41,251 bases of DNA from a virus. Below are positions 4,483 to 41,251 of the stretch, one piece after another. The position numbers and the translations under genes were made by a program. The stretch covers positions 1 to 41,251 of the IMG/VR virus record IMGVR_UViG_3300049001_000101. One strand, 5' to 3'. How positions within the stretch are numbered: position 1 is the first letter of the stretch; the number at the start of each line of letters is the position of its first letter. The notes beneath the pieces were generated by a model. That model searched no databases and had not been told where the DNA came from. It was given only the letters and a program-made list of their open reading frames with translations.

Positions 4483-5366
4483 CCGCTGCCGCCATCGACA
4501 CTCTCACGCTCGCCTGGTCCGCCATACGCGACGAGTTCCGCGCCAGGCTGCGCGGGATCCACGTCGCGCCATGGTGGGAGCATGCGCGTCTGCTGCGTGT
4601 GATGGGCTTTGGCCACGGCTTTGGCTGGAACATCCAGCAGACGTACAACCAGCGCCGCGGCTCCAATCTGCTGCTCTCTCCGCTGGACTGGCTGCAGGTG
4701 GAATGGTTTGCGACGTACGACTTCCCCCTGCGCGGCATCGAGCGCGGCATTCATGCCATGTTTGACCGTCGCGATCGCGCTCCCGTGCCATGGCAGATTA
4801 ACAGTCTGACGTATTGCGACCAGGCGATCATCGAGGAAAGCGAGTTGATGAAAGAAGCAAGCGTGGGAAGCGGAATCGACTTCCACTTCCCAAACTGGCC
4901 ACAGAAGCGACCGCGCCCGCACACTTTGCTGCTGGCTGTGCCTCCGGCCGGCCGTATGACTTTTGCCGCGATGCAGTCTGAGCGCCAGGTGGACCGCGTC
5001 GCGGAATTGTTTCAGGTGGGCATCGTCTTCACCGTTTATCCCGACGCCTGGCACAAAGAGCAGGCCCGGACGCGCTTCGGCATGGAGTTGGAGTTTTTGG
5101 ATCCGGAAATCAATCTTCACCACGGAGACACGGAGGCACGGAGTGAGCAGGTTAGTAAATTATCTGACCGTGAAAAGAACCGTGAGGATACTGGAAGCGG
5201 TGCTGCCGTATCTCAAACCAGAGGAAAAGCAGGAAGTCGAGGGCGAGTTGTTAAAGATGAAGGAATGGCTGAAGGATGCCGGGCCAGTGGATCGCTACCT
5301 CTACCGCAATTAGATTCCTCCGCGCCTCCGTGTCTCCGTGGTGAAAATTCGCAGGAGGCTTCATGA
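4479..5366 (+). CDS. Hypothetical protein with 3' end derived from an inserted repeat
   Basis: Translationally coupled to the methyltransferase (ATGA at 4479); 295 residues as read. The first ~210 residues look like a genuine protein rich in tryptophan (residue run WWEHARLLRVMGFGHGFGW), with no family I recognise. From about codon 213 onward the frame runs through the inverted-repeat element at 5116-5348 (HHGDTEAR is the translated repeat) and turns into low-quality sequence. The native stop was probably lost by insertion of that element, so the true functional end is likely near 5115. Confidence 0.5.
   Translation: MTAAAIDTLTLAWSAIRDEFRARLRGIHVAPWWEHARLLRVMGFGHGFGWNIQQTYNQRRGSNLLLSPLDWLQVEWFATYDFPLRGIERGIHAMFDRRDRAPVPWQINSLTYCDQAIIEESELMKEASVGSGIDFHFPNWPQKRPRPHTLLLAVPPAGRMTFAAMQSERQVDRVAELFQVGIVFTVYPDAWHKEQARTRFGMELEFLDPEINLHHGDTEARSEQVSKLSDREKNREDTGSGAAVSQTRGKAGSRGRVVKDEGMAEGCRASGSLPLPQLDSSAPPCLRGENSQEAS
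5116..5348. repeat. 233-bp inverted-repeat element (CACGGAG type)
   Basis: The left arm CACCACGGAGACACGGAGGC (from 5118) is mirrored by GCCTCCGTGTCTCCGTGGTG (to about 5343). The full 26-bp arms differ at one position. The element interrupts the end of the preceding gene and encloses a 56-codon ORF. A related single arm is at 18316-18343 and degenerate ones near 2720 and 29197-29225. I associate such arms with dispersed intergenic repeats of Acidobacteria. Confidence 0.65.
5143..5313 (+). CDS. Small helical protein inside the repeat element
   Basis: A 56-residue ORF with a GTG start lying exactly at the inner edge of the left repeat arm. The product is amphipathic and charged (ILEAVLPYLKPEEKQEVEGE, then KMKEWLKDAGPVDRYLYRN) and looks more protein-like than the frame of the 4479 gene over the same bases. 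It is bounded on both sides by the inverted repeat, so it may be the cargo of that element. Function unknown. Confidence 0.4.
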   Translation: MSRLVNYLTVKRTVRILEAVLPYLKPEEKQEVEGELLKMKEWLKDAGPVDRYLYRN

Positions 5367-6189: not shown

Positions 6190-6907
6190 GCCACGCGCTC
6201 TTGATCTGTGCTGCAAAGCTGGAGGCGCATCTGTAGGCCTGTATCATGCGGGATTTGATGTAACCGGCGTGGATCTGGAATATCAGCCGCGATACCCTTT
6301 CAATGGTTTATTTTTCCCGTTCCGCTTCATCCAGGCTGATGCGCTGACATTTCCTCTTGCTGGCTATGATTTCATCTGGGCAAGCCCTCCCTGCCAACAC
6401 TACTCTCACGCTGCAGCTCCTTTCAGAAACAAAGGAAAAATATATCCGGATATCGTAGCTTCTGTCCGCGAGCGCCTGATCTCGTCCAGAAGTTTGTATG
6501 CGATCGAGAATGTGCTGCAAGCTCCTCTGATCGATCCCATCATTCTTGATGGAACCATGTTCCCTGATCTGAAAGTAATTCGCCGTCGTGCTTTTGAATG
6601 CAATTTTTATATTGAAGTTCCTGAGAGTCACATCAGTCCTGGGCTTGTTGCCCGGGAAGGTTATTCCACAGTAGTCGGCGGAGGCAGGCCGAGCGGAATA
6701 CCAAAGAGCGCAAACCCGTGGCACACGCAAGCGGCTAAAGAAAAGGCTATGGGTATTGATTGGATGAGTCGCCCTGAGCTGAGCAATGCCGTCCCGCCGC
6801 GCTATGCGCAATACATCGCGGGGTGGGCTTTGAGAGCGCTCTCTCTTCCCGATCACCTGATCACCCGATCACCCGATGTCCCGATCCTGCAGGAGGCCAA
6901 TGGCTAA
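6182..6907 (+). CDS. Phage C5-cytosine DNA methyltransferase
   Basis: A 241-residue protein. The AdoMet motif LDLCCKAGGASVGLYHAGF opens the protein (usual form LDLFCGAGG). The catalytic SPPCQ is at 68-72 and ENV at 109-111. The chain is shorter than typical Dcm enzymes but of the length seen in compact phage cytosine methyltransferases. With the adenine enzyme at 3253 it would mask phage DNA from restriction. The last residues are encoded by a GATCACCC micro-repeat (about 6851-6875) before the QEANG end cassette. Confidence 0.75.
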   Translation: MAKPRALDLCCKAGGASVGLYHAGFDVTGVDLEYQPRYPFNGLFFPFRFIQADALTFPLAGYDFIWASPPCQHYSHAAAPFRNKGKIYPDIVASVRERLISSRSLYAIENVLQAPLIDPIILDGTMFPDLKVIRRRAFECNFYIEVPESHISPGLVAREGYSTVVGGGRPSGIPKSANPWHTQAAKEKAMGIDWMSRPELSNAVPPRYAQYIAGWALRALSLPDHLITRSPDVPILQEANG

Positions 6908-8411
6908 CACGCCTCCGCAACTCTGGCAGCACGGCGTTGACAAGCATTCGCGCTCCAAGAAACTGGACCGCGTGGTGGATGCCTACATCGGGCCGCACAA
7001 AAAGAAGTACAAAGCCGTGCGCTGGATCATGCAGCACTACGGCGCCCTGGCGCAAAAGGGAGAGACGGTCGTCAACCGCAAGCTGCAAGACGATCTGGCG
7101 GCCGGTCTGGGCATTGCGCGCTCCACCTTCACTAAAATGTGGATGATGTTCCGTGCTCCAGGCGCGTGCCCCAAGTGCGGTGGACCCAAAGTCAAGATGC
7201 TGGAAGATTTCAGCATGGAGTGCGAGAACTACCAAGAAATCGACGGCAAGATGGTGAGCTGCGGTCCTCTGCCGGCGGATTGGAACGAGCAGCGCCGCGT
7301 GGAACAAAGCGAGCTGATGAAGGGCATCATCAAGTCTCACCCTCGGTGGAACCTGCGCAAGCGCCGTAATGAAGCGAAGCGCCAGATCGCCGTGATTCGC
7401 AGGGTGCGCAAGCACGTTGCATCGCTGATCACGCGCAATGCCGGCTGGAGCGAAGCCAACAGTTACGCCGACGCCATGCCGCCAGAGTTGCGGCCGAAGA
7501 TCGAGCGCCAGGAAGATCCAGCTTTTGAAGCGCGCGTGATGGCGCAGCAGTTCGGCTCGGACCTGTTCGATCCGGAAGCGCACAAGCGGCTCGGCGTCCC
7601 CACCAACGGCTTTGACTATTCGGTGGGATGGAACTTCGATCCCAAACTTCCCTTCCTGCAAAAATGCGCGTGCCGGCTGAAGAAGTCACAACGCAGGTTC
7701 ATCTTCCAGAAGGTCTGCCCAAAATGCGAAGGCCGCGGCTTTATCAATACCGGCAAGCCCATGCCGTACACCTATCGAATGGTGTACCAGCAGATGGAGA
7801 ACCTTGGGCTGCGCAAAAAGCTGAGCCGTTGCGATCCCTGCAATGAGGTCTGGGACGGCAGCCGGCAATGCTGCCCAAAATGCGGCGACACTGGCCGCGT
7901 ACACAAGCACGCGGGGATCCTCACCGGATGGACGCAATGGAAGATAGGCGCGTTGGTGGGTTGCAGCGTGGCCACGGTGCGAGCGGCCGAGAATGCTTAC
8001 GCCAGGCTAATGATCATCCGCACCGTGAAGGGCCGCGCGTGGCGTAAGTGCGTTAGCTGCAAGATTGAATATTCCGAACGGTGCAAGTGCGGAGCCAAGG
8101 GCGGGAAAGTGGTGCGTCGTGAGCCGCACAAGATCATTTACCTGCCCGATCGGACGATGGACAGAGAGCTGTGCCAGTCCGAACGCAACCGCCTGGACGC
8201 CGCGGTGAAGAAAGCCGAGCGCATGAAGCTGCAGGAGCAGCAACTGCAACACCTGGTTGGGGCCGTGGCGCTGTCCAAGCAGGTCCTGAACGAATGGGAA
8301 GGCCAGGAGCACTACCTGGAGTCATACTGGAAAGAAATGCACCGCCGCATGGCGGTCCATGATGATCACGCGCGGCTTGTCAACGTGCTTTTCCCTCTGC
8401 AACGCGAGTGA
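6900..8411 (+). CDS. Multi-zinc-ribbon DNA-binding protein, candidate replication initiator or regulator
   Basis: A 503-residue protein; the ATG within AGGAGGCCAATGGC at 6900 is preferred over an upstream one at 6876. It contains an N-terminal helix-turn-helix-like stretch (LGIARSTFTKMW) and four or five cysteine clusters (CPKCGG, CACRLK, CPKCEGRG, CDPC with CCPKCGDTG, CVSC with CKCGAKGG), some resembling DnaJ zinc centres. A second helix-turn-helix follows (WKIGALVGCSVATVRAAENA), and the C-terminus is helical and charged. No polymerase or primase motif is visible. Its place directly before the non-coding region with iterons and a DnaA-like box makes a replication initiator plausible; a transcription regulator is the alternative. 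Confidence 0.5.
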   Translation: MANTPPQLWQHGVDKHSRSKKLDRVVDAYIGPHKKKYKAVRWIMQHYGALAQKGETVVNRKLQDDLAAGLGIARSTFTKMWMMFRAPGACPKCGGPKVKMLEDFSMECENYQEIDGKMVSCGPLPADWNEQRRVEQSELMKGIIKSHPRWNLRKRRNEAKRQIAVIRRVRKHVASLITRNAGWSEANSYADAMPPELRPKIERQEDPAFEARVMAQQFGSDLFDPEAHKRLGVPTNGFDYSVGWNFDPKLPFLQKCACRLKKSQRRFIFQKVCPKCEGRGFINTGKPMPYTYRMVYQQMENLGLRKKLSRCDPCNEVWDGSRQCCPKCGDTGRVHKHAGILTGWTQWKIGALVGCSVATVRAAENAYARLMIIRTVKGRAWRKCVSCKIEYSERCKCGAKGGKVVRREPHKIIYLPDRTMDRELCQSERNRLDAAVKKAERMKLQEQQLQHLVGAVALSKQVLNEWEGQEHYLESYWKEMHRRMAVHDDHARLVNVLFPLQRE

Positions 8412-8548
8412 TTGAATCCACCTGGTAAACAGTTGGCCGGTTCGACGAAGCCAGCGCGACGGGAGAGTTGTGTCCCCGCCGCGCTGTTCGCGTTTACGGG
8501 TATAAAGTGCTCTCGCCGGCGAGTTCCGAGTTGCGTGTTATTCGCATT

Positions 8549-8575
8549 TTAGCACTCTCGCGCTTAGAGTGCTAA
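8549..8575. promoter_or_regulatory. CIRCE operator (HrcA binding site)
   Basis: TTAGCACTC (8549-8557), a nine-base spacer (8558-8566) and GAGTGCTAA (8567-8575). Both half-sites and the spacer length match the CIRCE consensus exactly. HrcA represses groESL and dnaK operons through this element, with GroEL as co-factor for HrcA folding. Here it lies 138 bases after the 6900-8411 gene and 510 bases before the next ORF, not next to the phage chaperonins at 37967-39957. It could control a transcript into 9085, a small RNA, or simply bind HrcA. Confidence 0.85.
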
Positions 8576-8664
8576 AAGAGAAGTGGCCACTTTTCGCTTC
8601 GCCTTCGATTCTGATCATGTGAGCCAAAAATTTCCACAGGCCAGGCCGCATGACCTCTAAGTGA

Positions 8665-8749
8665 GTGTCAATAATAAGCTACAGGAATGTGTCCACAATG
8701 AGCCTGCATGCCCGCAGTTAGGTGTCAATCTGAGCGGTAACTGGTGTCA
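8665..8749. repeat. Four GTGTC iterons or IS21-type terminal repeats
   Basis: GTGTCA (8665), GTGTCC (8689), GTGTCAA (8722) and GTGTCAA (8744). The last two extend to GTGTCAATCTGAGCGG and GTGTCAACCCTAGCGG. Spacing is 24, 33 and 22 bases. This could be a replication iteron array or the multi-repeat end of an IS21-family element whose transposase is gone; none is seen nearby. Confidence 0.4.
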
Positions 8750-8836
8750 ACCCTAGCGGATACAAGCTTTTAGCTCTTTGAGGGCCTACGGCCAGAGGTT
8801 GATATAAGCAACAACCTGGATTTCCGTCACCCTCGC

Positions 8837-8845
8837 TGTGGAAAA
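8837..8845 (-). promoter_or_regulatory. DnaA-box-like site
   Basis: TGTGGAAAA, which reads TTTTCCACA on the other strand and fits TTWTNCACA. A single good box plus a partial one near 8630 is weak evidence, strengthened only by the nearby iterons and the upstream candidate initiator gene. Confidence 0.3.
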
Positions 8846-9084
8846 GTTATGCGGTGGTGACCCGACGGGCTTCGCCTGCTTATGCGAAGGGGTGCCACGA
8901 TCTTTCCCTTCCCCAAAGAGCATGGTGACCCCTTCGCGCATCCCCCAAAAGCAGAAGAGCTTTCCTTTGAAGTGTGCAAAGCAAGCTGAGGGCCAGAGCG
9001 TCGAGAGCATATGGAGCGTGGAACTGCGGGCAAAGAGGAAATGCATACAGCCCTGAAAACCGTCGCTATTAAAATTGAGGTGGG

Positions 9085-9324
9085 ATGAAAAAGGATGCGC
9101 TACTGATCTATCGCGACGGCACCGAGCGACACGTGAAGCTGCCGTTATCCCTCAGCCCTATTCCAGATCCGTTGCCCACACATATTCTGTTGTCGGCCAA
9201 GGGAGAGATTTTGGCGTACCTATTTAAAGGTTCCGACTTCGGCCTGCCGATCGATCCATCCGATTCCATCATGGCGCGCGATCCCGAGACGCCTGATGAA
9301 TGCCCGGTGTACCGGGAGGCTTAA
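9085..9324 (+). CDS. Hypothetical small protein, last early gene
   Basis: A 79-residue protein with GAGGTGGG before ATG. Mixed beta composition (LLIYRDGTERHVKLPLSLSP) with no family I can name. It is the only gene directly downstream of the CIRCE-containing region and ends just before the bidirectional terminator. Confidence 0.55.
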   Translation: MKKDALLIYRDGTERHVKLPLSLSPIPDPLPTHILLSAKGEILAYLFKGSDFGLPIDPSDSIMARDPETPDECPVYREA

Positions 9325-9343: not shown

Positions 9344-9371
9344 AAGCCCGGAGCGTGGAAACTCCGGGCTT
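9344..9371. terminator. Bidirectional intrinsic terminator
   Basis: AAGCCCGGAG (9344-9353), an 8-base loop, and CTCCGGGCTT (9362-9371) form a perfect 10-bp stem. A T-rich run follows on the + strand, and an A-run before it (9339-9345) gives a U-tract for - strand transcripts. It sits between the convergent genes 9085-9324 (+) and 9395-9718 (-), closing both the early and the late regions. Confidence 0.85.
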
Positions 9372-9394
9372 ATTCATTTTTCAGAAAAGGCGAG

Positions 9395-11807: not shown

Positions 11808-13621
11808 TGTGTTGGTGTGATCGGCTTGAAGTCAGTTTTAGGATCGAACTTTGCCGCGGCCGGCTGATTCCCCTGCAGCGCGTATCCGTATCTGCGCATC
11901 AGGAACTTGTTTGTTCCGATCCGCTCCGTAACCTGCGAATTCACGGCATTCTTCATCGCGGCCACCACGGACGTGCGCTGCGTCTGGTTTTGCGACGCGT
12001 TCATGGCGTTGAGGATGTGCATCTGCATTCCCTCAGTGCCCGTGCCGCCGCCCAGGACCTTGGCGTAATCATCGGCCGCGCCCAGTGCGGTTTGCATGTA
12101 CGCCGCAACCTCTGGATGTCCAGTGGCATAGTTCTGAGCGTCGGCAAGTTTGTTGAAGATCGGAAGTGTGTGATTCGGCAGTTTGGATCCCGCGTCCACC
12201 ACCTGGTCAAGCGTCCCGCCTTTTGCGATCAGAGAATTTGCCGATCCAAAGAACTGCACCTGAGTAGGAGATTTAGCGACACTCTCGGCCGCCATCTCGT
12301 CCGCGGGGTTGTACTTGGGATCGAGCTTCTTCGTTTCCGCGATGACATCTGTAATGTACTTCGGCGTCATGCCGCGGGTTTTCAGGTCCGCCAGCGTGAG
12401 ATCTCCGGAAGCCAGCAGAGGCGCAGCTCCCTTGGGATCGCCTTGCTTCGCCTGCTGCGAAGCGTTCTCCTTCGCCGTTACATCTTGCAGATAACGCGCG
12501 TGCGCCGAGGTGGCCTGCGCCAGCAGCCGCGACGCACGGACCTTGTCGGCCGGCGCGGTGTTTGGATCGGATAATTTGTTTTGCAGCAGCGGGATCGCCG
12601 CGGAAGATTTCTCTCCGCTCATCTCGCCCGGCTCATTCTCCATCTTGAACAGTGGATCAGCGGCCTGCTGCGCTGATTTCGCTTTGGCCTGCTCTGCCTG
12701 AAATTCGGTGACCTTCTGCTGCTGGGCCACGCGCTGCAGGATCTGCGACTGCACCATGTTGTCGAATACAAAGAAATCGTAGCCGTTGAGCTGGCCGCCT
12801 TTCTTCAGCACGTCAAGCCTGCCCTGCGCCACCTGGATCGCTGGATCTTTGTCGCCCTTGGGCAGCACCTGGCGCGCATAGTCGATCTGGTTTTGCAAGT
12901 TAGTCAGGACCGGCGCGGCCTGGTCAACCGGCACGTTCACCTTGCGCAGCTGGTCAAAAGAAAATCCGTAGCTGTTGCCCGGTCCTCCGGGCTTGTCGTC
13001 ATGCACGGGGATCACCGTGTTGTTCACCAGATCGCCGTTGGTTTTGGCGTTGACGCCGGCCATGTGCGTGTCCGTGGTCTGCCCCTGGACGATCGGCACC
13101 GCGAACAGCGGATTGATGTGCAGCACGTTGGTGTAGAGATCGTAAAGGCTCTTTTGGTTATCGATGACCAGCTTCTGATGCTCTGCCGGCGCGTTCATCT
13201 TATTGATTTCAGTCTGCGCAATGGTCGCGTTGGTGAGCGCCTGCAGGTGCGTGATGTTGGCGGCTGCCGAGGTGTTCTCTCTTGCATTGGCTTGCTGCTT
13301 GAGCGCCATGTCCTGCCGTTGCGCTTTGAGCTGCTGGATTTCCTGGACTCCGCCTTTTTCTCCTCCGGTTGCAGCCGATGTGGCGAACGCGTCCATGCCT
13401 TCAAAAAGCGATTGCATGATGTTGCGCAGGCCCGCGTGCGGACCTGTGGGCATCGCCGGCGCAGATGTTTGCGGCGCAGGCTGTGCGGGCGGTGGAGCAG
13501 TATTCTGCGCAGGCGAGGGCGCCTGCGGTCCACTAGTCTGAACGGGTTGCGCCTGTGCGGAAGAATCCGGCTGCGCGTCCGCGAGTCCGCTGATCGCTGA
13601 TGTGATTTCGTTAGGATCCAT
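11804..13621 (-). CDS. Large internal virion or structural protein
   Basis: A 605-residue protein with a Pro/Ala/Gln-rich N-terminal linker (30-62), then long helical and coiled-coil regions (about 90-150, 290-330), and an alpha-helical C-terminal half. The N-terminus contains SAISGLADAQPD (8-19), nearly identical to SAISGLADAKPD in the small late protein at 34496-34693. A GCAGGCGAGGGCGCC-type palindrome (13509-13533) is embedded in frame as PQAPSPAQ. Position between nozzle and lysis genes matches the internal core proteins of podoviruses. No lysozyme motif seen. Confidence 0.5.
   Translation of the reverse strand: MDPNEITSAISGLADAQPDSSAQAQPVQTSGPQAPSPAQNTAPPPAQPAPQTSAPAMPTGPHAGLRNIMQSLFEGMDAFATSAATGGEKGGVQEIQQLKAQRQDMALKQQANARENTSAAANITHLQALTNATIAQTEINKMNAPAEHQKLVIDNQKSLYDLYTNVLHINPLFAVPIVQGQTTDTHMAGVNAKTNGDLVNNTVIPVHDDKPGGPGNSYGFSFDQLRKVNVPVDQAAPVLTNLQNQIDYARQVLPKGDKDPAIQVAQGRLDVLKKGGQLNGYDFFVFDNMVQSQILQRVAQQQKVTEFQAEQAKAKSAQQAADPLFKMENEPGEMSGEKSSAAIPLLQNKLSDPNTAPADKVRASRLLAQATSAHARYLQDVTAKENASQQAKQGDPKGAAPLLASGDLTLADLKTRGMTPKYITDVIAETKKLDPKYNPADEMAAESVAKSPTQVQFFGSANSLIAKGGTLDQVVDAGSKLPNHTLPIFNKLADAQNYATGHPEVAAYMQTALGAADDYAKVLGGGTGTEGMQMHILNAMNASQNQTQRTSVVAAMKNAVNSQVTERIGTNKFLMRRYGYALQGNQPAAAKFDPKTDFKPITPTQ
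13509..13533. repeat. Palindromic repeat (GCAGGCGAGGGCGCCTGC type), in frame in a gene
   Basis: GCAGGCGAGGGCGCCTGC followed by GGTCCAC. Other copies lie at 14322-14346 and, reversed, at 25883-25907. Here it is translated within the linker of the 605-residue protein. Confidence 0.65.
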
Positions 13622-14314: not shown

Positions 14315-14746
14315 TTAGTCCGCAGGCGAGGGCGCCTGCGCTCCACACTTCAAAATGAAAAGTTCGCGCGCGTCGGGATTGAAGCCGTGAGCCCGAGCCC
14401 ATTCAGCTACCGGGTACGCGCTTTTGGTGAGCACGTCGAGTGTGTTGATCTGATGCTCAGATGCAAAGGCTTTCAGGACCTGCAGCATCATTTCCATCGC
14501 CGCTTCGCGCGTCTCTTTGTCCGCGTCCGGATTAAAGCCGAGATACCCAATGCGCTGCACCAGGTAAGACGGCACAAAGAGCACCGGAATGCCGTCACTC
14601 TCGATCACGAAGTAAGTCGTCGTCGGGTTCTCTTCTTTGGTCGCGGCCTTGATGTCGCCGCCGTCGATCAGTCGGTTTGAGGCCGTCCAACGCGCAAAAC
14701 TTTCAGCATCGCTCTCTTCAGCGAATCGAAACTTCATCTCTGCCAT
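14315..14746 (-). CDS. GNAT-like acetyltransferase-fold phage protein
   Basis: A 143-residue protein starting at 14746; codons upstream come from repeat DNA. FRFAEESDAESFARWTASNR, the central YFVIESDGIPVLFVPSYL, and the final AYPVAEWARAHGFNPDARELFIL follow the GNAT layout (N-terminal helix, central strands, C-terminal helix with a GF turn). The AcCoA loop is not clearly recognisable, so activity is uncertain. Similar GNAT-like proteins occur among virion gene clusters of podoviruses. The last residues are repeat-encoded. Confidence 0.5.
   Translation of the reverse strand: MAEMKFRFAEESDAESFARWTASNRLIDGGDIKAATKEENPTTTYFVIESDGIPVLFVPSYLVQRIGYLGFNPDADKETREAAMEMMLQVLKAFASEHQINTLDVLTKSAYPVAEWARAHGFNPDARELFILKCGAQAPSPAD
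14322..14346. repeat. Palindromic repeat (GCAGGCGAGGGCGCCTGC type)
   Basis: The second copy, with CGCTCCAC following. It provides the last codons of the 14315-14746 gene (QAPSPAD). Confidence 0.65.
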
Positions 14747-15266: not shown

Positions 15267-15272
15267 AAGTTT

Positions 15273-15473
15273 TTCACCGCAAAGGACGCAAAGATCGCAA
15301 AGGAGTAAAATCTGGGAATGATTCACAATGGGCCGACGCCCGATGATTTCGTGACATGCCTGCATCCAGAGAGCTGGAGCGAGAGCGCTGAAAACCCCCC
15401 ATATGATGTATTGCCTGAGCTGTGGACTAGAGTTTCCTAATCCTTTGCGGCCTTCGCGACCTTTGCGGTAAAT
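15273..15473. repeat. 201-bp inverted-repeat element (CACCGCAAAGG type) with cargo ORF
   Basis: The left arm TTCACCGCAAAGGACGCAAA (from 15274) mirrors the right arm, whose inner part is TCCTTTGCGGCCTTCGCGAC (from 15441) and which ends in GGTAAA. It encloses a + strand mini zinc-finger ORF opposite to the late genes. Sister elements are at 17811-18080 and 25148-25233 (the last has no cargo). Confidence 0.65.
15318..15471 (+). pseudogene. Frameshifted miniature zinc-finger gene in a repeat element
   Basis: From ATG 15318 the frame gives MIHNGPTPDDFVTCLHPESW and stops at 15440. Removing one C from the C6 run at about 15399-15404 joins it to the frame ending HMMYCLSCGLEFPN plus the repeat-encoded RPSRPLR (stop 15469-15471). 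The corrected C-terminal 37 residues align without gaps to those of the ORF at 17870-18080, sharing CLH, W, PH, CL-CG and FPN. The C6 run may be a true mutation, a sequencing error or a slippage site. A TAAAAT -10-like box lies seven bases before the ATG. Confidence 0.5.
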
Positions 15474-17806: not shown

Positions 17807-17810
17807 GGTT

Positions 17811-18080
17811 TTTCACCGCAAAGGTCGCAAAGAGCCGCAAAGGGGAGGTAAAGTAAAATCTGAACTAAGATGAACGAACTGGAAAATATCTGCGTCAACT
17901 TCAAAGTTGCTAGCGCGCCCGGCACCGATTACTTCTCCAAGATCGAGGTACTTTTCTTTCTATTCATGCCTGCATCGCGGAAACTGGTATGTTAGCGACG
18001 AACGTCCGCACCTGAAGCGCTGCCTAGACTGCGGGAAAGATTTTCCTAACTCTTCGCGTCCTTCGCGGCCTTTGCGGTAA
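17811..18080. repeat. 270-bp inverted-repeat element (CACCGCAAAGG type) with cargo ORF
   Basis: Left arm TTTCACCGCAAAGGTCGCAA (from 17812); right arm CTTCGCGTCCTTCGCGGCCT then TTGCGGTAA (to 18080). The right arm also encodes the C-terminus of the - strand gene 18046-18309. It is organised like the element at 15273, including GTAAAATCTG just before the cargo ATG in both. Confidence 0.65.
17870..18080 (+). pseudogene. Frameshifted miniature zinc-finger gene, second copy
   Basis: ATG 17870 opens a 41-codon frame (MNELENICVNFKVASAPGTD) ending at 17995. The +1 frame from about 17955 reads SCLHRGNWYVSDERPHLKRC then LDCGKDFPN and ends in RPSRPLR at 18080, collinear with the 15318 copy. The switch falls in a T-rich run (CTTTTCTTTC, about 17951-17960). 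Conservation at protein level despite different codons suggests both descend from a real zinc-finger gene. Confidence 0.45.
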
Positions 18081-18309: not shown

Positions 18310-18347
18310 TTGTTGTTCTCCGTGCCTCCGTGTCTCCGTGGTGAGAA

Positions 18348-25130: not shown

Positions 25131-25147
25131 AAAATTCTCTCCAGTTG

Positions 25148-25233
25148 TTCACCGCAAAGGTCGCTAAGATCGCTAAGGAGGAAAGGGATTAAAACCCACA
25201 AGCCTTCGCGTCCTTTGCGAACTTTGCGGTAAA
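25148..25233. repeat. Inverted-repeat pair (CACCGCAAAGG type) without cargo
   Basis: TTCACCGCAAAGGTCGCTAA (from 25148) and the mirrored TTCGCGTCCTTTGCGAACTT then TGCGGTAA (25205-25232), separated by about 25-35 bases. It would form a strong hairpin in the leader of the 25130 gene. Confidence 0.6.
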
Positions 25234-25782: not shown

Positions 25783-26342
25783 GGTTTCTCGATCGCTAGA
25801 TCCGCGTTGCCCCACGCGACGGACTTCACGAAATCGGTAAACTCGAAATCAAGGACCATCGTGCGCGCCCTTACTTGAATTTGTGGACCGCAGGCGCCCT
25901 CGCCTGCGATTCCATGAAGTGAAATGATCCCGCCTGGCGCCACAATCTCGCCGCAAGCGCTTGCGCCAGGGGCATCTCCGGGCTGGTTGGCCAGGGAGAC
26001 GCCCAGGCGTTGCAGCGCGGACTCGATCTCGCGTTGTGTCGCCACAAGTACGCAAGGAAGGCCGCGGTCTGGATCCAGTAGAAATTCGTAAAATGATTCC
26101 GCTCCGCCGGCGCAGAGGGCATCCGTGAAATCCCAGGAGCAACTCTGCCAGACGATTTCCGCCGCATCTCTCGCTGCTGGCTGATCGGCCGTAAAAATCT
26201 GCCCGATGCGCTCAAAGCGGAAAAACGCCGCCGCCTGCTCCGCACGGTCCCTGGCGGGCTCGTCCAGCGGAGAGTCGGCGGCATCGTCACCGCAGGGTAT
26301 TCGCACGAGATACCCGAGCGGAGGCTGAAGGTAATTGATCAT
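25776..26342 (-). CDS. Histidine-phosphatase-fold protein lacking both catalytic histidines
   Basis: A 188-residue protein. The order matches the phosphoglycerate-mutase/histidine phosphatase superfamily: YLVRIP (11-16, where enzymes have LVRHG), then SPLDEPARDRAEQAAAFFRF (as PLT..G..QA...A), IGQIFTADQPAARDAAEIVW (as D.I.SS.L.RA..TAE.V), and CVLVATQREIESALQRLG (as VL.V.HGG.I..L). Both catalytic histidines are replaced (by I and Q), so it should be a dead enzyme used for binding or structure. Residues ~118-150 are encoded by two palindromic repeats inserted in frame. Confidence 0.5.
   Translation of the reverse strand: MINYLQPPLGYLVRIPCGDDAADSPLDEPARDRAEQAAAFFRFERIGQIFTADQPAARDAAEIVWQSCSWDFTDALCAGGAESFYEFLLDPDRGLPCVLVATQREIESALQRLGVSLANQPGDAPGASACGEIVAPGGIISLHGIAGEGACGPQIQVRARTMVLDFEFTDFVKSVAWGNADLAIEKPC
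25883..25965. repeat. Two palindromic repeats embedded in a coding region
   Basis: GTGGACCGCAGGCGCCCTCG (from 25883; inverse of the copies at 13509 and 14322) and CGCAAGCGCTTGCG (25952-25965; relative of the 14796 palindrome). Both lie in the 25776-26342 gene without breaking its frame, translated as GIAGEGACGPQ and PGASACGE. Confidence 0.6.
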
Positions 26343-28160: not shown

Positions 28161-28191
28161 AAAAACGGCGCGGCGTTATCGTTCACCGCGC
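28161..28191 (-). terminator. Intrinsic terminator between scaffold and capsid genes
   Basis: On the - strand GCGCGG, a 12-base loop and CCGCGC form a stem followed by CGTTTTTC. Partial termination here, or antitermination through it, would set the ratio of scaffold to capsid transcripts. Confidence 0.5.
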
Positions 28192-34808: not shown

Positions 34809-35777
34809 TTACGGCTGCCAGAAGTCGTATTCGTTCGCGGTGGGCTGCGCCGTGGATCCGGATAGATTGGCAAAGCGCAAGGTCAGCAGGTGCCATCTGC
34901 CCAGGTTCTGCCAGGTGGCTCCGTTGTCGCCCAGCGTGGCATAGAGCGTGTTGTTGCTGCCCGCAAAATTAGGGACGCTCGATCCCGTGGTTCCCGAGAT
35001 GATGCACTGCCACAACACGTTGTTAATCACGATGTAGCTGGTGCCCTGCGTTACCGCGGTCGATTGCGGCCAGAGCGGCGCCACGCAATCCATGCCTTCC
35101 ACGGAAATGCCTGAAGCATCGGCGGTGGCGTTCGGTCGCGCGTAAGTAGTCGGGCGTCCGATGTTGAACGGCACCGGCACGCGCACATTCACGTCGGCCG
35201 TTACGTTGGTGGTGATCGCCGGCAACGGGTCCTGCACGCCGCTGGTGTTTACCACCGGCAGCGCCGCGCCCGCGCCCAGCACTTTCACCGTCGCCGACGT
35301 GGTGGCAATCGGGATATAGAGCAGCGTTCCGCCGCCGCGCTTGATTTGTATGCTGAGCATCGCCACGCTCAGCGATGCCGCGGCTTCATTCGCCAGCTCC
35401 GTGTTGGTGGTGCTTCCGGTGTAGATGCGCCAGCCGATGATCGGCTGTGCGTTGAGTTGCGCCCCGGTGTTCAGTGAGCCCGTGGAGCCCAGCGCAATCG
35501 TCACCGATCCGCTCGGCCCGCCGGTCACTGTGACCGTGCCTTCGGCTGATGGCGTGGTTTCACCCAGCGCCGTCACCCATGTGATCTTGGTAAAAAAGCT
35601 TCCGTTGGCCAGCGATCCGCCTGAGCCCACGTTGGTAAGGTTGCCGTTGCCGAAAGCAGTTCCGGTGGCTCCGGGGGCAAGTACCCCCCAGTCCTGCCGC
35701 GCAACTGGATAATACGCTGAGCCGGGCTGTGCTTGCCGGCTAAACGGGTGGTCTTTCACTGACAGTGAGATTGTCAA
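34809..35777 (-). CDS. Fibre-like structural protein, intact copy
   Basis: A 322-residue protein with a TTG start; AAGGAGCAGTACC just upstream decides it. Beta-rich: a fibronectin-like region (LGETTPSAEGTVTVTG, ~75-90) and a C-terminal W-C-G-T-T-G repeat (NVLWQCIISGTTGSSVPNFA, then GDNGATWQNLG) related to inserts in the nozzle protein. It ends FDFWQP-like (NEYDFWQP). Its first 132 codons are duplicated in the 36058-36585 gene. A head fibre or decoration protein is likely. Confidence 0.5.
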   Translation of the reverse strand: MTISLSVKDHPFSRQAQPGSAYYPVARQDWGVLAPGATGTAFGNGNLTNVGSGGSLANGSFFTKITWVTALGETTPSAEGTVTVTGGPSGSVTIALGSTGSLNTGAQLNAQPIIGWRIYTGSTTNTELANEAAASLSVAMLSIQIKRGGGTLLYIPIATTSATVKVLGAGAALPVVNTSGVQDPLPAITTNVTADVNVRVPVPFNIGRPTTYARPNATADASGISVEGMDCVAPLWPQSTAVTQGTSYIVINNVLWQCIISGTTGSSVPNFAGSNNTLYATLGDNGATWQNLGRWHLLTLRFANLSGSTAQPTANEYDFWQP

Positions 35778-35822
35778 GGTACTGCTCCTTCTTTGGGGGA
35801 AGGAATTTTGGGGGAAAAGATC

Positions 35823-35898
35823 TGGAGCTGGCGGCTGCCTCGCTAGTTGCAGCCTCCTCCGGTCTAACTTGCCGGTGCTCGCTCTGAGCTACGCCAGC
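35823..35898 (-). tRNA. tRNA-like cloverleaf, copy A (possibly a degenerate tRNA)
   Basis: Read on the - strand, 76 nt fold as: acceptor GCTGGCG/CGCCAGC (7 bp, perfect), TA, D-stem GCTC/GAGC, anticodon stem CCGGC/ACCGG with one mismatch, 5-nt variable region AGGAG, T-stem GCTGC/GCAGC, then T and CCA. The segment GCGTAGCTCAGAG is the usual A-box motif. Odd features: a 5-nt D-loop, a 10-nt T-loop without TTC, and an anticodon loop AAGTTAG lacking U33 (GTT would be Asn). It may be a decayed tRNA or a tRNA mimic. Confidence 0.4.
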
Positions 35899-35926
35899 GT
35901 GTGTGACCACCACCCAGCACGAATCT

Positions 35927-36061
35927 ATGAAGGAGGATGGCCGTGACATCGATTTGTTTTGGGAAGGCGGGCGGCGAACTGCTGTGTTGCGATTGAGGCC
36001 GTCAACGCGTCAAGCAACTCTTGAACCGCCCGCCGCGCGGATACAATTTCGAATCCGCTAA
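35927..36061 (+). CDS. Possible small ORF in the duplicated spacer
   Basis: A 44-codon + strand ORF (MKEDGRDIDLFWEGGRRTAV at its start) between the tRNA-like sequence and the next gene; an identical copy lies at 36735-36869. No ribosome site or promoter is evident. It is listed because it fills the only gene-free part of the unit, but it may be chance. Confidence 0.2.
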   Translation: MKEDGRDIDLFWEGGRRTAVLRLRPSTRQATLEPPAARIQFRIR

Positions 36062-36585
36062 GGCTGTTGCGTTTGCGATCCCTGGCTCAATTCGTCGACG
36101 TCCTTCGTAATCACGTCAATCCTGCCATCGTGGATCTCGACTTTGTCTCCGAGATCTTCCAGACTCTTCACGATTGGCTCTTGCGCCGCGGCTTCATTCG
36201 CCAGCTCCGTGTTGGTGGTGCTTCCGGTGTAGATGCGCCAGCCGATGATCGGCTGTGCGTTGAGTTGCGCCCCGGTGTTCAGTGAGCCCGTGGAGCCCAG
36301 CGCAATCGTCACCGATCCGCTCGGCCCGCCGGTCACTGTGACCGTGCCTTCGGCTGATGGCGTGGTTTCACCCAGCGCCGTCACCCATGTGATCTTGGTA
36401 AAAAAGCTTCCGTTGGCCAGCGATCCGCCTGAGCCCACGTTGGTAAGGTTGCCGTTGCCGAAAGCAGTTCCGGTGGCTCCGGGGGCAAGTACCCCCCAGT
36501 CCTGCCGCGCAACTGGATAATACGCTGAGCCGGGCTGTGCTTGCCGGCTAAACGGGTGGTCTTTCACTGACAGTGAGATTGTCAA
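36058..36585 (-). CDS. Chimeric gene created by the tandem duplication
   Basis: A 175-residue ORF with the same TTG start and ribosome site as the 34809 gene. Its first ~133 residues equal that protein (to ELANEAAA). The rest (QEPIVKSLEDLGDKVEIHDG and on to QGSQTQQP) equals the C-terminal tail of the protein at 36866. The fusion falls exactly at the GCCGCGG junction and keeps the frame, so a hybrid of a beta-rich fibre domain and a charged helical tail could be made. Confidence 0.6.
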   Translation of the reverse strand: MTISLSVKDHPFSRQAQPGSAYYPVARQDWGVLAPGATGTAFGNGNLTNVGSGGSLANGSFFTKITWVTALGETTPSAEGTVTVTGGPSGSVTIALGSTGSLNTGAQLNAQPIIGWRIYTGSTTNTELANEAAAQEPIVKSLEDLGDKVEIHDGRIDVITKDVDELSQGSQTQQP

Positions 36586-36992
36586 GGTACTGCTCCTTCT
36601 TTGGGGGAAGGAATTTTGGGGGAAAAGATCTGGAGCTGGCGGCTGCCTCGCTAGTTGCAGCCTCCTCCGGTCTAACTTGCCGGTGCTCGCTCTGAGCTAC
36701 GCCAGCGTGTGTGACCACCACCCAGCACGAATCTATGAAGGAGGATGGCCGTGACATCGATTTGTTTTGGGAAGGCGGGCGGCGAACTGCTGTGTTGCGA
36801 TTGAGGCCGTCAACGCGTCAAGCAACTCTTGAACCGCCCGCCGCGCGGATACAATTTCGAATCCGCTAAGGCTGTTGCGTTTGCGATCCCTGGCTCAATT
36901 CGTCGACGTCCTTCGTAATCACGTCAATCCTGCCATCGTGGATCTCGACTTTGTCTCCGAGATCTTCCAGACTCTTCACGATTGGCTCTTGC
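36185..36992. repeat. 808-bp tandem duplication, unit B
   Basis: Second unit, offset +808 from unit A and apparently identical; joined to unit A through GCCGCGG at 36185-36191. Assembly error is possible, but the shared microhomology is what a real duplication would also leave. Confidence 0.85.
36631..36706 (-). tRNA. tRNA-like cloverleaf, copy B
   Basis: Identical second copy, 808 bases away in the duplicated unit, with the same unusual loops and encoded CCA. Confidence 0.4.
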
Positions 36993-37273
36993 GCCGCGGT
37001 TGGCGTTTCTGTTGCTGGCGCGACTTCGGGCCAATGCCATGTATGCGCCTGCGGATTCTCACTTGCATCGAGTGAAACGGAGGTCACCCATTTCACGGGA
37101 CGCATGTTTTGCTCGTCGGAGTTGGTGCCATCAGTGAATACCTGTAGGTTGATACAAGACCAACCCCACACCGCTACGATGATGGCTGGCAAATGAAGCA
37201 CTCCAGCGCCCGGACCGCACCAGGCGGGTTTCTTTTGTACGTAATGAACTATTCTGCCGATCGTTGGCTTCAT
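36866..37273 (-). CDS. Hypothetical phage protein with helical tail
   Basis: A 135-residue protein with AAGGAGAG before ATG. The first 90 residues (MKPTIGRIVHYVQ, then LPAIIVAVWGWSCINLQVFT and HTWHWPE) match a pattern I have seen in hypothetical proteins of many phages (a KPT-GRIVHY start, an HTWHWPE end). The last 45 residues are a charged helix that is also the tail of the chimera. Confidence 0.55.
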   Translation of the reverse strand: MKPTIGRIVHYVQKKPAWCGPGAGVLHLPAIIVAVWGWSCINLQVFTDGTNSDEQNMRPVKWVTSVSLDASENPQAHTWHWPEVAPATETPTAAQEPIVKSLEDLGDKVEIHDGRIDVITKDVDELSQGSQTQQP

Positions 37274-37849: not shown

Positions 37850-37970
37850 GCCATGTCAACACTGCGATGACTTCCTCGACGTTGCCGGAATAGCTACAGG
37901 CAAGAATGCGGAGCAAATCACGTTTGCAATTCTGAAGATGTTCATATTTTTTATCGCGTAGCAGCTTCAT
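37692..37970 (-). CDS. Small ORF overlapping groES end and terminase start
   Basis: A 92-residue ORF whose ATG lies in an ATGA overlap with the groES stop. The first ~60 residues (MKLLRDKKYEHLQNCKRDLL) look protein-like; the remainder overlaps the small terminase in another frame and is less convincing. It may be a genuine short coupling gene. Confidence 0.35.
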   Translation of the reverse strand: MKLLRDKKYEHLQNCKRDLLRILACSYSGNVEEVIAVLTWRERQIQIPISELREGHIPNVARADRQVKGTTGVCTPAGKPAEIPGSVPREQL

Positions 37971-38320
37971 TCAAGGGTTCCCTTCGCGACATCAACGCAA
38001 TCCGGACACGCGCCGCACGGCTTGCCTTCAGCCTTGAAGCACAGCCAGCCCACAATCTCGCCTTCGCGCATCGAAAGATATTCCTGGCCGTTGACCTGCA
38101 CCTTTGTACCGGCGTGTGGCCCAAACAACACTGTCATGCCTGGCTTCACGCGCAACGGCCGTACCGTCCCATCTTCTTTGGCGTAGCCATCCCCCGCGCT
38201 TATCAGGATGCCCATCAAAAAGTCATCGCGCGCATTGTCCGGCAGCGCAAACCCGTCTACCGACTTCGCGCCTTCCATCGGCTGCACCAGCACGCGCTCA
38301 TACAGGGGGATGAACTTCAC
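37967..38320 (-). CDS. groES: Phage co-chaperonin GroES with cysteine-rich C-terminus
   Basis: A 117-residue protein. PLYERVLVQPMEGAKSVDGF, the mobile-loop region AKSVDGFALPDNA (18-30), GMTVLFGPHAGTKVQVNGQE and EIVGWL are the GroES fold in order. The hydrophobic tripeptide of the mobile loop is FAL where host GroES has IVL-type. Bacterial GroES proteins are about 95-100 residues; here 22 extra residues carry C94, C102, C105 and C108 (CGACPDC), which could bind zinc. ATGA overlap with groEL shows coupling; the order is groEL then groES, reversed from host operons. Confidence 0.85.
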   Translation of the reverse strand: MKFIPLYERVLVQPMEGAKSVDGFALPDNARDDFLMGILISAGDGYAKEDGTVRPLRVKPGMTVLFGPHAGTKVQVNGQEYLSMREGEIVGWLCFKAEGKPCGACPDCVDVAKGTLE

Positions 38321-39957
38321 TGCGCGGCCTCCTCTAACTCTTCCGCGATCACAGCGTCCGCGCGTAGGATTAGCATCGCCACGCTCAGCGCGTTCACGAT
38401 CTCTTCCTTCACCGCTTTCAACGGATCCAGAATCCCGGCTTTCACCATCACGATGTATCTATCGCCTGCCGCATCATAGCCAACCTCGATCGGTGGGACA
38501 GGCTCGGCTGTTATTGATGAACGGTTTATCTCGAGGACCTTCTCTACAACCGCATCGCCGCTCTTGCCGGCGTTCTGCGCGATCTGCTTCATTGGCTCGG
38601 CGCAAGCAGAGCACACCATATCAGCGCCCGCGCTTTTGGTGCGTGGAATTTGATATCCAACTATTTTGACCTGCTCTGCCGCCAGCAGCAGCGCCAGTCC
38701 GCCGCCCGGGACCACGCCGCTCTCGGCTGCACACTTGGTCGCGTACATCGCGTCTTCCACGCGGTCTTTCTTTTCGCGCATCTCCGCTTCCGTCGCGCCG
38801 CCTACTTTGATCACCGCAACGCCGCCGGTGAGTCCGGCCAATCGCTGCTCCAGCAACCGGACCTGGTCCGGATCGCCCTGCTCGGCCTTAAGCGCCTCAA
38901 TCTGTTTGCGGATATCTTCCGCCCTGGCGTTCATGGCATCGCGCCCGCCCGCGCTTCCCATCAAAATTGTTTTTGTCTCTGTGATCGCCGCGCGTTTTAC
39001 CTGGCCCAAATGCTCCCTGGTCAGGTTCTTCAGGTCCATCCCCATTGCGTCAGTGATCGCCCGGCCGCCTGCAAGCGCCGCCAGGTCTTCCAGGATCGCG
39101 CGTCGTCTATCGCCCCATCCAGCCGCGCGGATCGCGCAGCAGCGGAAGCCGTTCTCAAGTTTGTTCTTGACCATGAAGGCCAGCGCATCAAACTCGTAAT
39201 CGCCTGCGATCACCAGCAGCGATTTGTTCGCATCGCGCGCCAGCCTCATCGCCGGATACAACTGCTGGTATCCGCCTATCTTGCCTTCATGCATGAGAAC
39301 CAAAACATCCTCAAGCACGCACTCCACGCGCTCCGATTGATTACAAAAAAGCCCGGAGCGCATTCCTTCGGGCAACTGCATGCCGTCTACCACTTCGAGA
39401 GTCGTATCGAGTGAGCGTGAAGGCTCGCAGGCAATCACGCCCTCTTTGCCCACGCGGTTCACCGCTTCGACTACCAGCTTCGCGATTGTCGCGTCTCCGT
39501 TGGAAGAAATTGTTGCCACCTGCTCCAGCATCGGGCCGTCGCATGGCAGCGCCATCTTGTCCAGCGCGGTGAGGATTTGTTCCTGCGCGAGCTTGGCGCC
39601 TGCCTGCAATTCGTCGGGAGTGTGCCCTGCCGCCATCAGCTTCATGCCGGCATGAATCAGTGATTGCGCCAGCAACGTCGCCGTCGTGGTGCCGTCGCCC
39701 GCTGTCTGCACGGTCTTTTGCGCAGCCTCGCGAATCAGGTCGCATCCCATCTGCTCGATTGGGTCTGCGCAGTTCACGTGGTCCGCAACCGTGACGCCGT
39801 CCTTGGTCGCCCGCGGCGTTTGGTTAAACTGCCGACGGCCGATGATCACCAGCCTGCCCTTTGGTCCCAGCGTGACCTTCACCGTGTTGGCGATCAGGTC
39901 CACGCCCTTCATCAGCTTCTCGCGGCAGCCGTCTCCGTGCTTGATAATTTTGTTCAT
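38317..39957 (-). CDS. groEL: Phage chaperonin GroEL
   Basis: A 546-residue group I chaperonin. TLGPKG (29-34), DGVTVA (53-58) and GDGTTT (87-92) are the ATP-binding and hydrolysis motifs; RVEDAMYATK holds the conserved catalytic aspartate. VVPGGGLALL and the C-terminal region are also typical. The apical substrate/GroES-binding part is divergent (GMRSGLFCNQSERVE), and the C-terminal GGM repeats are absent (ends EELEEAAQ). It probably folds phage virion proteins with the phage GroES. Gene is coupled at both ends by ATGA overlaps. Confidence 0.9.
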   Translation of the reverse strand: MNKIIKHGDGCREKLMKGVDLIANTVKVTLGPKGRLVIIGRRQFNQTPRATKDGVTVADHVNCADPIEQMGCDLIREAAQKTVQTAGDGTTTATLLAQSLIHAGMKLMAAGHTPDELQAGAKLAQEQILTALDKMALPCDGPMLEQVATISSNGDATIAKLVVEAVNRVGKEGVIACEPSRSLDTTLEVVDGMQLPEGMRSGLFCNQSERVECVLEDVLVLMHEGKIGGYQQLYPAMRLARDANKSLLVIAGDYEFDALAFMVKNKLENGFRCCAIRAAGWGDRRRAILEDLAALAGGRAITDAMGMDLKNLTREHLGQVKRAAITETKTILMGSAGGRDAMNARAEDIRKQIEALKAEQGDPDQVRLLEQRLAGLTGGVAVIKVGGATEAEMREKKDRVEDAMYATKCAAESGVVPGGGLALLLAAEQVKIVGYQIPRTKSAGADMVCSACAEPMKQIAQNAGKSGDAVVEKVLEINRSSITAEPVPPIEVGYDAAGDRYIVMVKAGILDPLKAVKEEIVNALSVAMLILRADAVIAEELEEAAQ

Positions 39958-40363: not shown

Positions 40364-41251
40364 TCAATCCCCAGATAACGACCGTTTGGGAGTGCCGACC
40401 GACGATGCTGGTACCTTCGGGGGGCAAATGCCCGGCACCACATCTCCCAAACAAGGATCCCCGTCTCGCATGCGCTGCGGTTCTGGCGCGCTTGCTGCGC
40501 CCACTGCAACCTCGACGCCTCCGCCACCAGCGTGCGTCTCTGTGCGGGCAAATGTGTGGGGTTTTTCTGAAACCATTTCCGACGCTCCTACGCTCGCGCT
40601 GCGGCCTTCCAACCCTTCGCGCGACACTCGCTCTCCGCGCGTCGCTCCAGGCATCTTCTGCGCCTCCGGCATCGGCATCACCGCATCCATCTCGACTTCC
40701 ACACTCACTGCCTGCTGCGTCAATTCCTGCACCAGCACCACGCGCCCTTTCTTCGTGCGCGACAAATATCCGCAATAGCCCGTCAGCGGCCCGCGCACCA
40801 CTCTCACGCGATCGCCCGCGTTCAAGCCGTCAACAGTGTGCGGCAGCGGCTTCAGCGTGTGTTGGTTGGCGCATATATTTCTCATTCGCTCGATCTCCTC
40901 ATCTTCCAGCGGCTCCGGCCGTCCACTCGCGCCCACTAGTCGGATCACTCCAGGCGTTTCCAGCACGCGCAATCTGTCGTATAGCGATATACGCACAAAC
41001 AGGTAGCACGGAAACAATGGCGCATCGATCTCAACTGTCCGGTCCGTCCATCTGCGTTTTTCTTTGTACTGTGGAAGAAAGAATTCAACGTCGCGCGTGT
41101 TCAAGTGCTGCGCCACGCGTCCTTCGTGCCTCGATCGCACATACGCTGCGAACCAAAGAGCTGTCGCTGAATTCAATGTCGCATGCAATGCCATTTCAGC
41201 TCGTCGCGCTCCGGCGCGCAAACATCCGCGGCTCTGCGAAGTCCTTCGCAT
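40364..41251 (-). CDS. UpxY/RfaH-type NusG paralog (transcription antiterminator), possibly 5'-truncated
   Basis: Read from the window end; ATG at 41194 (MALHATLN) is the likely start, but the gene may begin outside. NGN domain residues 33-108 (WFAAYVRSRHEGRVAQHLNT, then FFLPQYKEKRRW, PLFPCYLFVRI, PGVIRLVG) and the KOW domain (GDRVRVVRGPLTGYCGYL, 146-163) match UpxY-family antiterminators. These normally load on RNA polymerase at the start of polysaccharide operons. The last ~95 residues (from about 197) are low-complexity and look like translated repeat DNA (a TETHAGGGGVEVAVGAASAP stretch). It heads the late operon. Confidence 0.75.
   Translation of the reverse strand: MRRTSQSRGCLRAGARRAEMALHATLNSATALWFAAYVRSRHEGRVAQHLNTRDVEFFLPQYKEKRRWTDRTVEIDAPLFPCYLFVRISLYDRLRVLETPGVIRLVGASGRPEPLEDEEIERMRNICANQHTLKPLPHTVDGLNAGDRVRVVRGPLTGYCGYLSRTKKGRVVLVQELTQQAVSVEVEMDAVMPMPEAQKMPGATRGERVSREGLEGRSASVGASEMVSEKPHTFARTETHAGGGGVEVAVGAASAPEPQRMRDGDPCLGDVVPGICPPKVPASSVGTPKRSLSGD

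Follow-up and report, generated by a model that had tools for sequence, protein, structure and literature searches.

How does a perfect match to the operator for a repressor of bacterial chaperone genes come to lie in a noncoding stretch of phage DNA with no chaperone gene beside it, and what might it do there? HrcA, which recognizes the CIRCE element, acts as a dimer to repress the chaperone operons of the host, and it depends on GroEL for its activity. In the window (the whole stretch of viral DNA analysed here, a 41,251-nt IMG/VR virus record), the sequence at 8549-8575 matches the CIRCE consensus perfectly and is the sole match at up to three mismatches. In agreement with the sequence-only reading, the 9-9-9 pattern is exact, and TTAGCACTC-N9-GAGTGCTAA was found in none of 100 dinucleotide-preserving shuffles of the window. 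The match at all 18 positions and its absence from the shuffles favour a genuine operator. The site is also noncoding, as had been stated, with the upstream ORF stopping at 8411 and the next likely plus-strand gene beginning at 9085. The features of the locus and the phage chaperonin genes are collected in Table 1.

Table 1. Features of the CIRCE locus and chaperonin genes in the window.
Feature	Position	Strand	Remarks
511-aa protein with Cys pairs	6876-8411	+	Gene just upstream of the stretch; conserved in both relatives, G002 and G004
Noncoding stretch, 673 nt	8412-9084		Probable replication origin or DnaA-bound control region
Conserved block	8412-8510		84/99 (85%) identical to G002; contains conserved inverted repeat 8452-8486
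Palindrome CTCGCCGGCGAG	8512-8523		Read from the sequence; G002 has a different palindrome, CTCCGCGCGGAG, in the same place
Weak promoter-like match in the dyad	8546-8575	-	TTAGCA, 18 nt, TAAAAT, with TG before it; consensus match alone
Perfect 12-nt inverted repeat extending the CIRCE	8547-8577		Dyad around the CIRCE
CIRCE (HrcA operator consensus)	8549-8575		TTAGCACTC-TCGCGCTTA-GAGTGCTAA; 18/18 match; G002 counterpart at 9363-9389
Iteron-like repeats beginning GTGTC	8665-8759	+	At 8665, 8689, 8722 and 8744; first two by eye
DnaA-box-like TTTTCCACA	8837-8845	-	Also in G002 and G004
Phage groES	37967-38320	-	Downstream of groEL
Phage groEL	38317-39957	-	CIRCE-free surroundings

The phage has chaperonin genes of its own, in the operon order groEL-groES (37967-39957) and on the strand opposite to the plus-strand genes at the CIRCE, and the scan of the window at up to three mismatches detected no CIRCE near them. 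The earlier statement that the element lies ~29 kb from these genes holds in that it is away from groEL-groES, while the figure itself is valid for a linear contig only. In a related, syntenic genome, G004, the ends of the contig lie within one gene, and its map is therefore circularly permuted; there the start of groEL is at 17949 and that of the corresponding noncoding stretch at 28167, ~10 kb apart. Upstream of groEL-groES, a NusG-domain protein with a PHROG assignment as transcription antiterminator is encoded at 40364-41251 on the minus strand.

Other repeats occur elsewhere in the window. An exact 815-nt tandem duplication (35377-36191 and 36185-36999) is either recent or an assembly artefact, since the gene part of both copies maps to one gene in G004 and in a second relative, G002. 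Dispersed, mostly intergenic repeats form three families, at 5117-5143, 5318-5349 and 18318-18344; at 13508-13533, 14321-14346 and 25883-25908; and at 15268-15309, 15429-15471, 17808-17843, 18038-18080 and 25143-25184. G002 shares the CTCCGTGCCTCCGTGTCTCCGTGGTGA family, and the intergenic repeats CTCCGTGCCTCCGTGTCTCCGTGGTGA and TTTTTCACCGCAAAGG may resemble repeats of soil bacterial genomes.

The early control region suggested before is not evident; the CIRCE sits in the middle of a rightward gene block, after the conserved 511-aa protein and within an origin-like stretch. It begins 138 nt past the stop of the 511-aa ORF and ~510 nt before the next likely plus-strand gene (9085-9324), which does not encode a chaperone. 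No chaperone gene follows it in the window, and the promoter or leader placement typical of a heat-shock gene is thus not seen here; nor was a remnant of a chaperone gene seen beside it. A consensus scan gave no convincing promoter on either strand, and for the leftward promoter-like match at 8546-8575 one was found against 0.4 expected from shuffles. The lack of a convincing promoter and the long distance to the next gene, compared with mostly 20-110 nt at viral chaperone genes, weaken the operator reading. Two other origins for the local sequence were considered and dropped. Recent arrival of the CIRCE on a host fragment is ruled out by the upstream block common to the window and G002, which indicates that the locus was inherited within the phage group. 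An IS21-like remnant after the CIRCE, suggested by GTGTCAA repeats, was discarded because no plasmid or phage DNA similarity was found and the relatives have repeats of a similar kind.

Portal searches yielded two long and syntenic relatives, G002 (42,863 bases) and G004 (40,403 bases), the others being shorter or more distant; searches with the 511-aa protein or a conserved 19-mer returned the same two genomes only. A noncoding stretch lies 3' of the 511-aa gene in all three genomes and keeps scattered blocks of identity, while the genes to its right differ, G002 having a short protein and a sigma factor and G004 a Gp49-like protein and an HTH protein. G002, which aligns with the window across most of its length, carries a CIRCE-like site with two mismatches, TTAGCACTC-TAGTATTGC-GACTGCTAG, 137 nt past the stop codon of the 511-aa ortholog. 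Between the two sites the left arm is identical at 9/9 and the right arm at 7/9 positions, together 16/18, compared with 3/9 in the loop, 18/38 in the left flank (8511-8548) and 32/85 in the right flank (8576-8660), the near flanks being ~40% identical. At a background of ~40%, the chance of 16/18 conserved arm positions is ~2 in 100,000 by a binomial estimate that depends on the alignment and includes a left arm adjoining the conserved block. The dyad may have been kept by descent, its arms in preference to its loop; the orthologous placement with conserved arms and diverged loop and flanks favours the operator reading.

The core TTAGCA-N15-TGCTA is present once in the window and once in G002; with any spacer of 10-20 nt it was not found in three further related records. 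According to a ChIP-seq study, the HrcA motif of Waddlia is TAGCA-N15-TGCTAA, and HrcA gave band shifts with its target promoters (PMC4989314); the core in the window and G002 matches this motif. Single-strand folding of the dyad is strong in the window (z -3.1) and the hairpin is lost in G002 (z +1.0). Hence, the conserved feature is the duplex motif rather than the hairpin, which fits an operator bound by protein as a duplex and, together with the match to the Waddlia motif, favours the operator reading. G004 contains no CIRCE at up to three mismatches; it keeps a right-half-like GAATGCTAG-TTATCC, and the left half is absent. The comparison with related phages suggested before thus shows the CIRCE partly retained at this locus in G002 and not in G004: being imperfect in the one and absent from the other, the element is common to part of the phage group only. 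That a single relative carries the site, and with two mismatches, speaks against the operator reading.

To characterize the surrounding stretch, the three homologous regions were searched for TTATCCACA with up to one mismatch. Six DnaA-box-like 9-mers were found, whereas 300 scrambled 9-mers averaged 0.33 and reached at most 5, and this enrichment also favours the operator reading. The sites qualify as a DnaA-box cluster across the three genomes, with one of the six lying in the window itself; this site at 8837, TGTGGAAAA, is shared with both G002 and G004. A perfect DnaA box in G002 begins 1 nt past the dyad. A repeat lag of 22 nt is present in the window, G002 and G004, weak in each genome alone. 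No GC-skew minimum was observed at the stretch, the cumulative skew peaking near 10 kb, and no initiator protein was identified: the adjacent 511-aa protein gives weak HTH matches in its homologs only, in an HTH-like region, and its structure model (mean pLDDT 44.7) was too poor for use. Judged by these sequence features, 8412-9084 is probably an origin or a DnaA-bound control region, while the missing skew support and initiator weaken the operator reading.

Perfect CIRCEs are not restricted to this phage. A scan of IMG/VR gave a perfect CIRCE in 103 stretches; the reversed pattern did not occur in 40 records. With profiles built from these loci, a chaperone gene was called just downstream in 35 of the 103 (Hsp20 in 21, GroES in 13, HtpG in 1), mostly 20-110 nt away; the remaining 68, about two thirds, lack a gene of these kinds there, and 55 ORFs neighbouring these 68 gave no chaperone or HrcA Pfam match. 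Pfam matches near the non-chaperone sites include a terminase, a capsid protein and DUF3846, whose gene closely follows the CIRCE in four contigs (L064, L065, L098 and L104). Several contigs carry 2-4 CIRCEs within ~30-800 nt; in L025 (5424-5548), L036 (7037-7100), L089 and L096, two or three perfect copies 30-70 nt apart precede non-chaperone phage genes. Eleven contigs share a CIRCE with the identical loop TGCTTCGGG 28 nt 5' of hsp20 (L011, L022, L028, L032, L043, L051, L055, L066, L075, L077 and L093). Among the matches listed, Pelagibacter phage HTVC115P (43%) is the named phage nearest to them; no CIRCE precedes its hsp20. Likeness between the IMG/VR loci and the window is limited to GroEL, GroES and one weak protein match, and some of the virus-classed contigs may hold host DNA. 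The data suggest that phage-borne CIRCEs recur at non-chaperone sites, and this recurrence, in part clustered, favours the operator reading. A weak similarity to the window CIRCE also led to a Rhizobium gallicum plasmid (L132), on which a CIRCE with one mismatch (2007-2033) precedes an Hsp20-like ORF.

Neither the window phage nor its relatives encode HrcA, so any HrcA acting on the site would come from the host. Among named phages, only one that infects the acidobacterium Tunturiibacter has a related portal (24.7% over 72%), and Tunturiibacter phage Tunturi_3 contains no CIRCE. A Ruminococcaceae MAG, the only match to the exact CIRCE with its loop, was uninformative as a host lead for a phage of 57% GC. 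In the open-access papers searched, judged by titles, abstracts and selected passages, there is no description of a phage-borne CIRCE.

Local control is the simplest reading of the dyad. We tentatively favour, as quite possible if short of probable, that it is a genuine CIRCE and an operator for host HrcA, present in part of the phage group and located in an origin-like region, where it would tie local transcription or replication to the chaperone status of the host. In the unstressed host, GroEL-activated HrcA, presumed to be present there, would bind the dyad and block a local promoter or the access to the adjoining DnaA- and iteron-like sequence; candidate targets are the weak promoter-like match that points leftward within the dyad and the adjoining origin-like sequence. 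Once unfolded protein occupies GroEL, or heat or the folding load of infection inactivates HrcA, repression would be relieved and local transcription or replication would presumably rise. The phage could in this way sense the folding state of the cell through the CIRCE, as we infer from its sequence and as had been raised as one option before. A more far-reaching version, in which unrelated phage groups took over the HrcA/CIRCE switch for non-chaperone functions and the element here gates the origin region, with the chaperone state licensing replication, appears rather unlikely. An HrcA operator kept in an origin-like region away from chaperone genes would in itself link host folding state directly to phage development.

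The main rival is a decaying passenger, the dyad being the operator of a chaperone gene since lost here and now without function. The imperfect copy in G002 and the missing one in G004 make it the first alternative to consider; viral CIRCEs also often precede hsp20 or groES, as in the 35 of 103 stretches with a chaperone gene, and the genes to the right vary among the relatives. However, the window copy is perfect and even extended, its arms were kept relative to G002 while loop and flanks were not, and no chaperone remnant is seen beside it, which leaves a relic somewhat unlikely. The origin-like setting would also suit a dimeric protein other than HrcA, for instance an initiator or repressor of the phage, with the likeness to CIRCE arising by coincidence or convergence, and the DnaA box directly past the G002 dyad and the right-half-like GAATGCTAG before TTATCC in G004 are in line with this. 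Since all 18 consensus positions and the spacing are exact and the dyad occurs once per genome, whereas initiator sites usually come in multiple copies, we regard such a protein as quite unlikely.

Titration had been put forward as well: many copies on replicating phage DNA would draw HrcA off the host groESL and dnaK operons and thereby raise host chaperones. A decoy, which requires neither a promoter nor a set distance to a gene, is compatible with a perfect site that has no chaperone gene next to it; it would, however, not require orthologous placement in an origin-like region. The site is single in each genome that has it, and the phage supplies GroEL-GroES itself; nothing specific favours titration over local control, and it seems distinctly improbable. 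That the inverted repeat is an RNA hairpin or a transcription terminator ending the rightward gene block is hardly credible: the 12-bp stem is strong in the window, but no T run follows it on either strand and no terminator was called; Rfam gave no match, and the hairpin is lost in G002.

The preferred reading, an HrcA operator in an origin-like region, can be compared with several known systems. Plasmid and phage origins with DnaA boxes and iterons resemble the stretch in being noncoding, with DnaA-box-like sites in three genomes and a weak repeat lag of ~22 nt, and differ from it by the weakness of its repeats and by the absence of an identified initiator and of skew support; to our knowledge, there is no case of a CIRCE inside a region of this type. 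With the bacterial CIRCE operons (groESL and hrcA-grpE-dnaK-dnaJ) the site shares the exact arms and 9-nt loop, and G002 the TAGCA-N15-TGCTA core, whereas the window has no chaperone gene downstream, a distance of ~510 nt to the next plus-strand gene and a phage noncoding region with DnaA-box-like sites as its context, and the HrcA reading it would be that of the host. The 35 viral CIRCEs at hsp20, groES or htpG are likewise perfect and on virus-classed contigs, yet mostly lie 20-110 nt before the chaperone gene, and not ~510 nt before a gene of another kind. The non-chaperone viral CIRCEs, at DUF3846 genes or in the arrays of L025, L036 and L089, belong to unrelated phages, are often grouped as 2-4 sites close together and stand nearer to a gene start; like the site in the window, they are perfect and have no chaperone neighbour.
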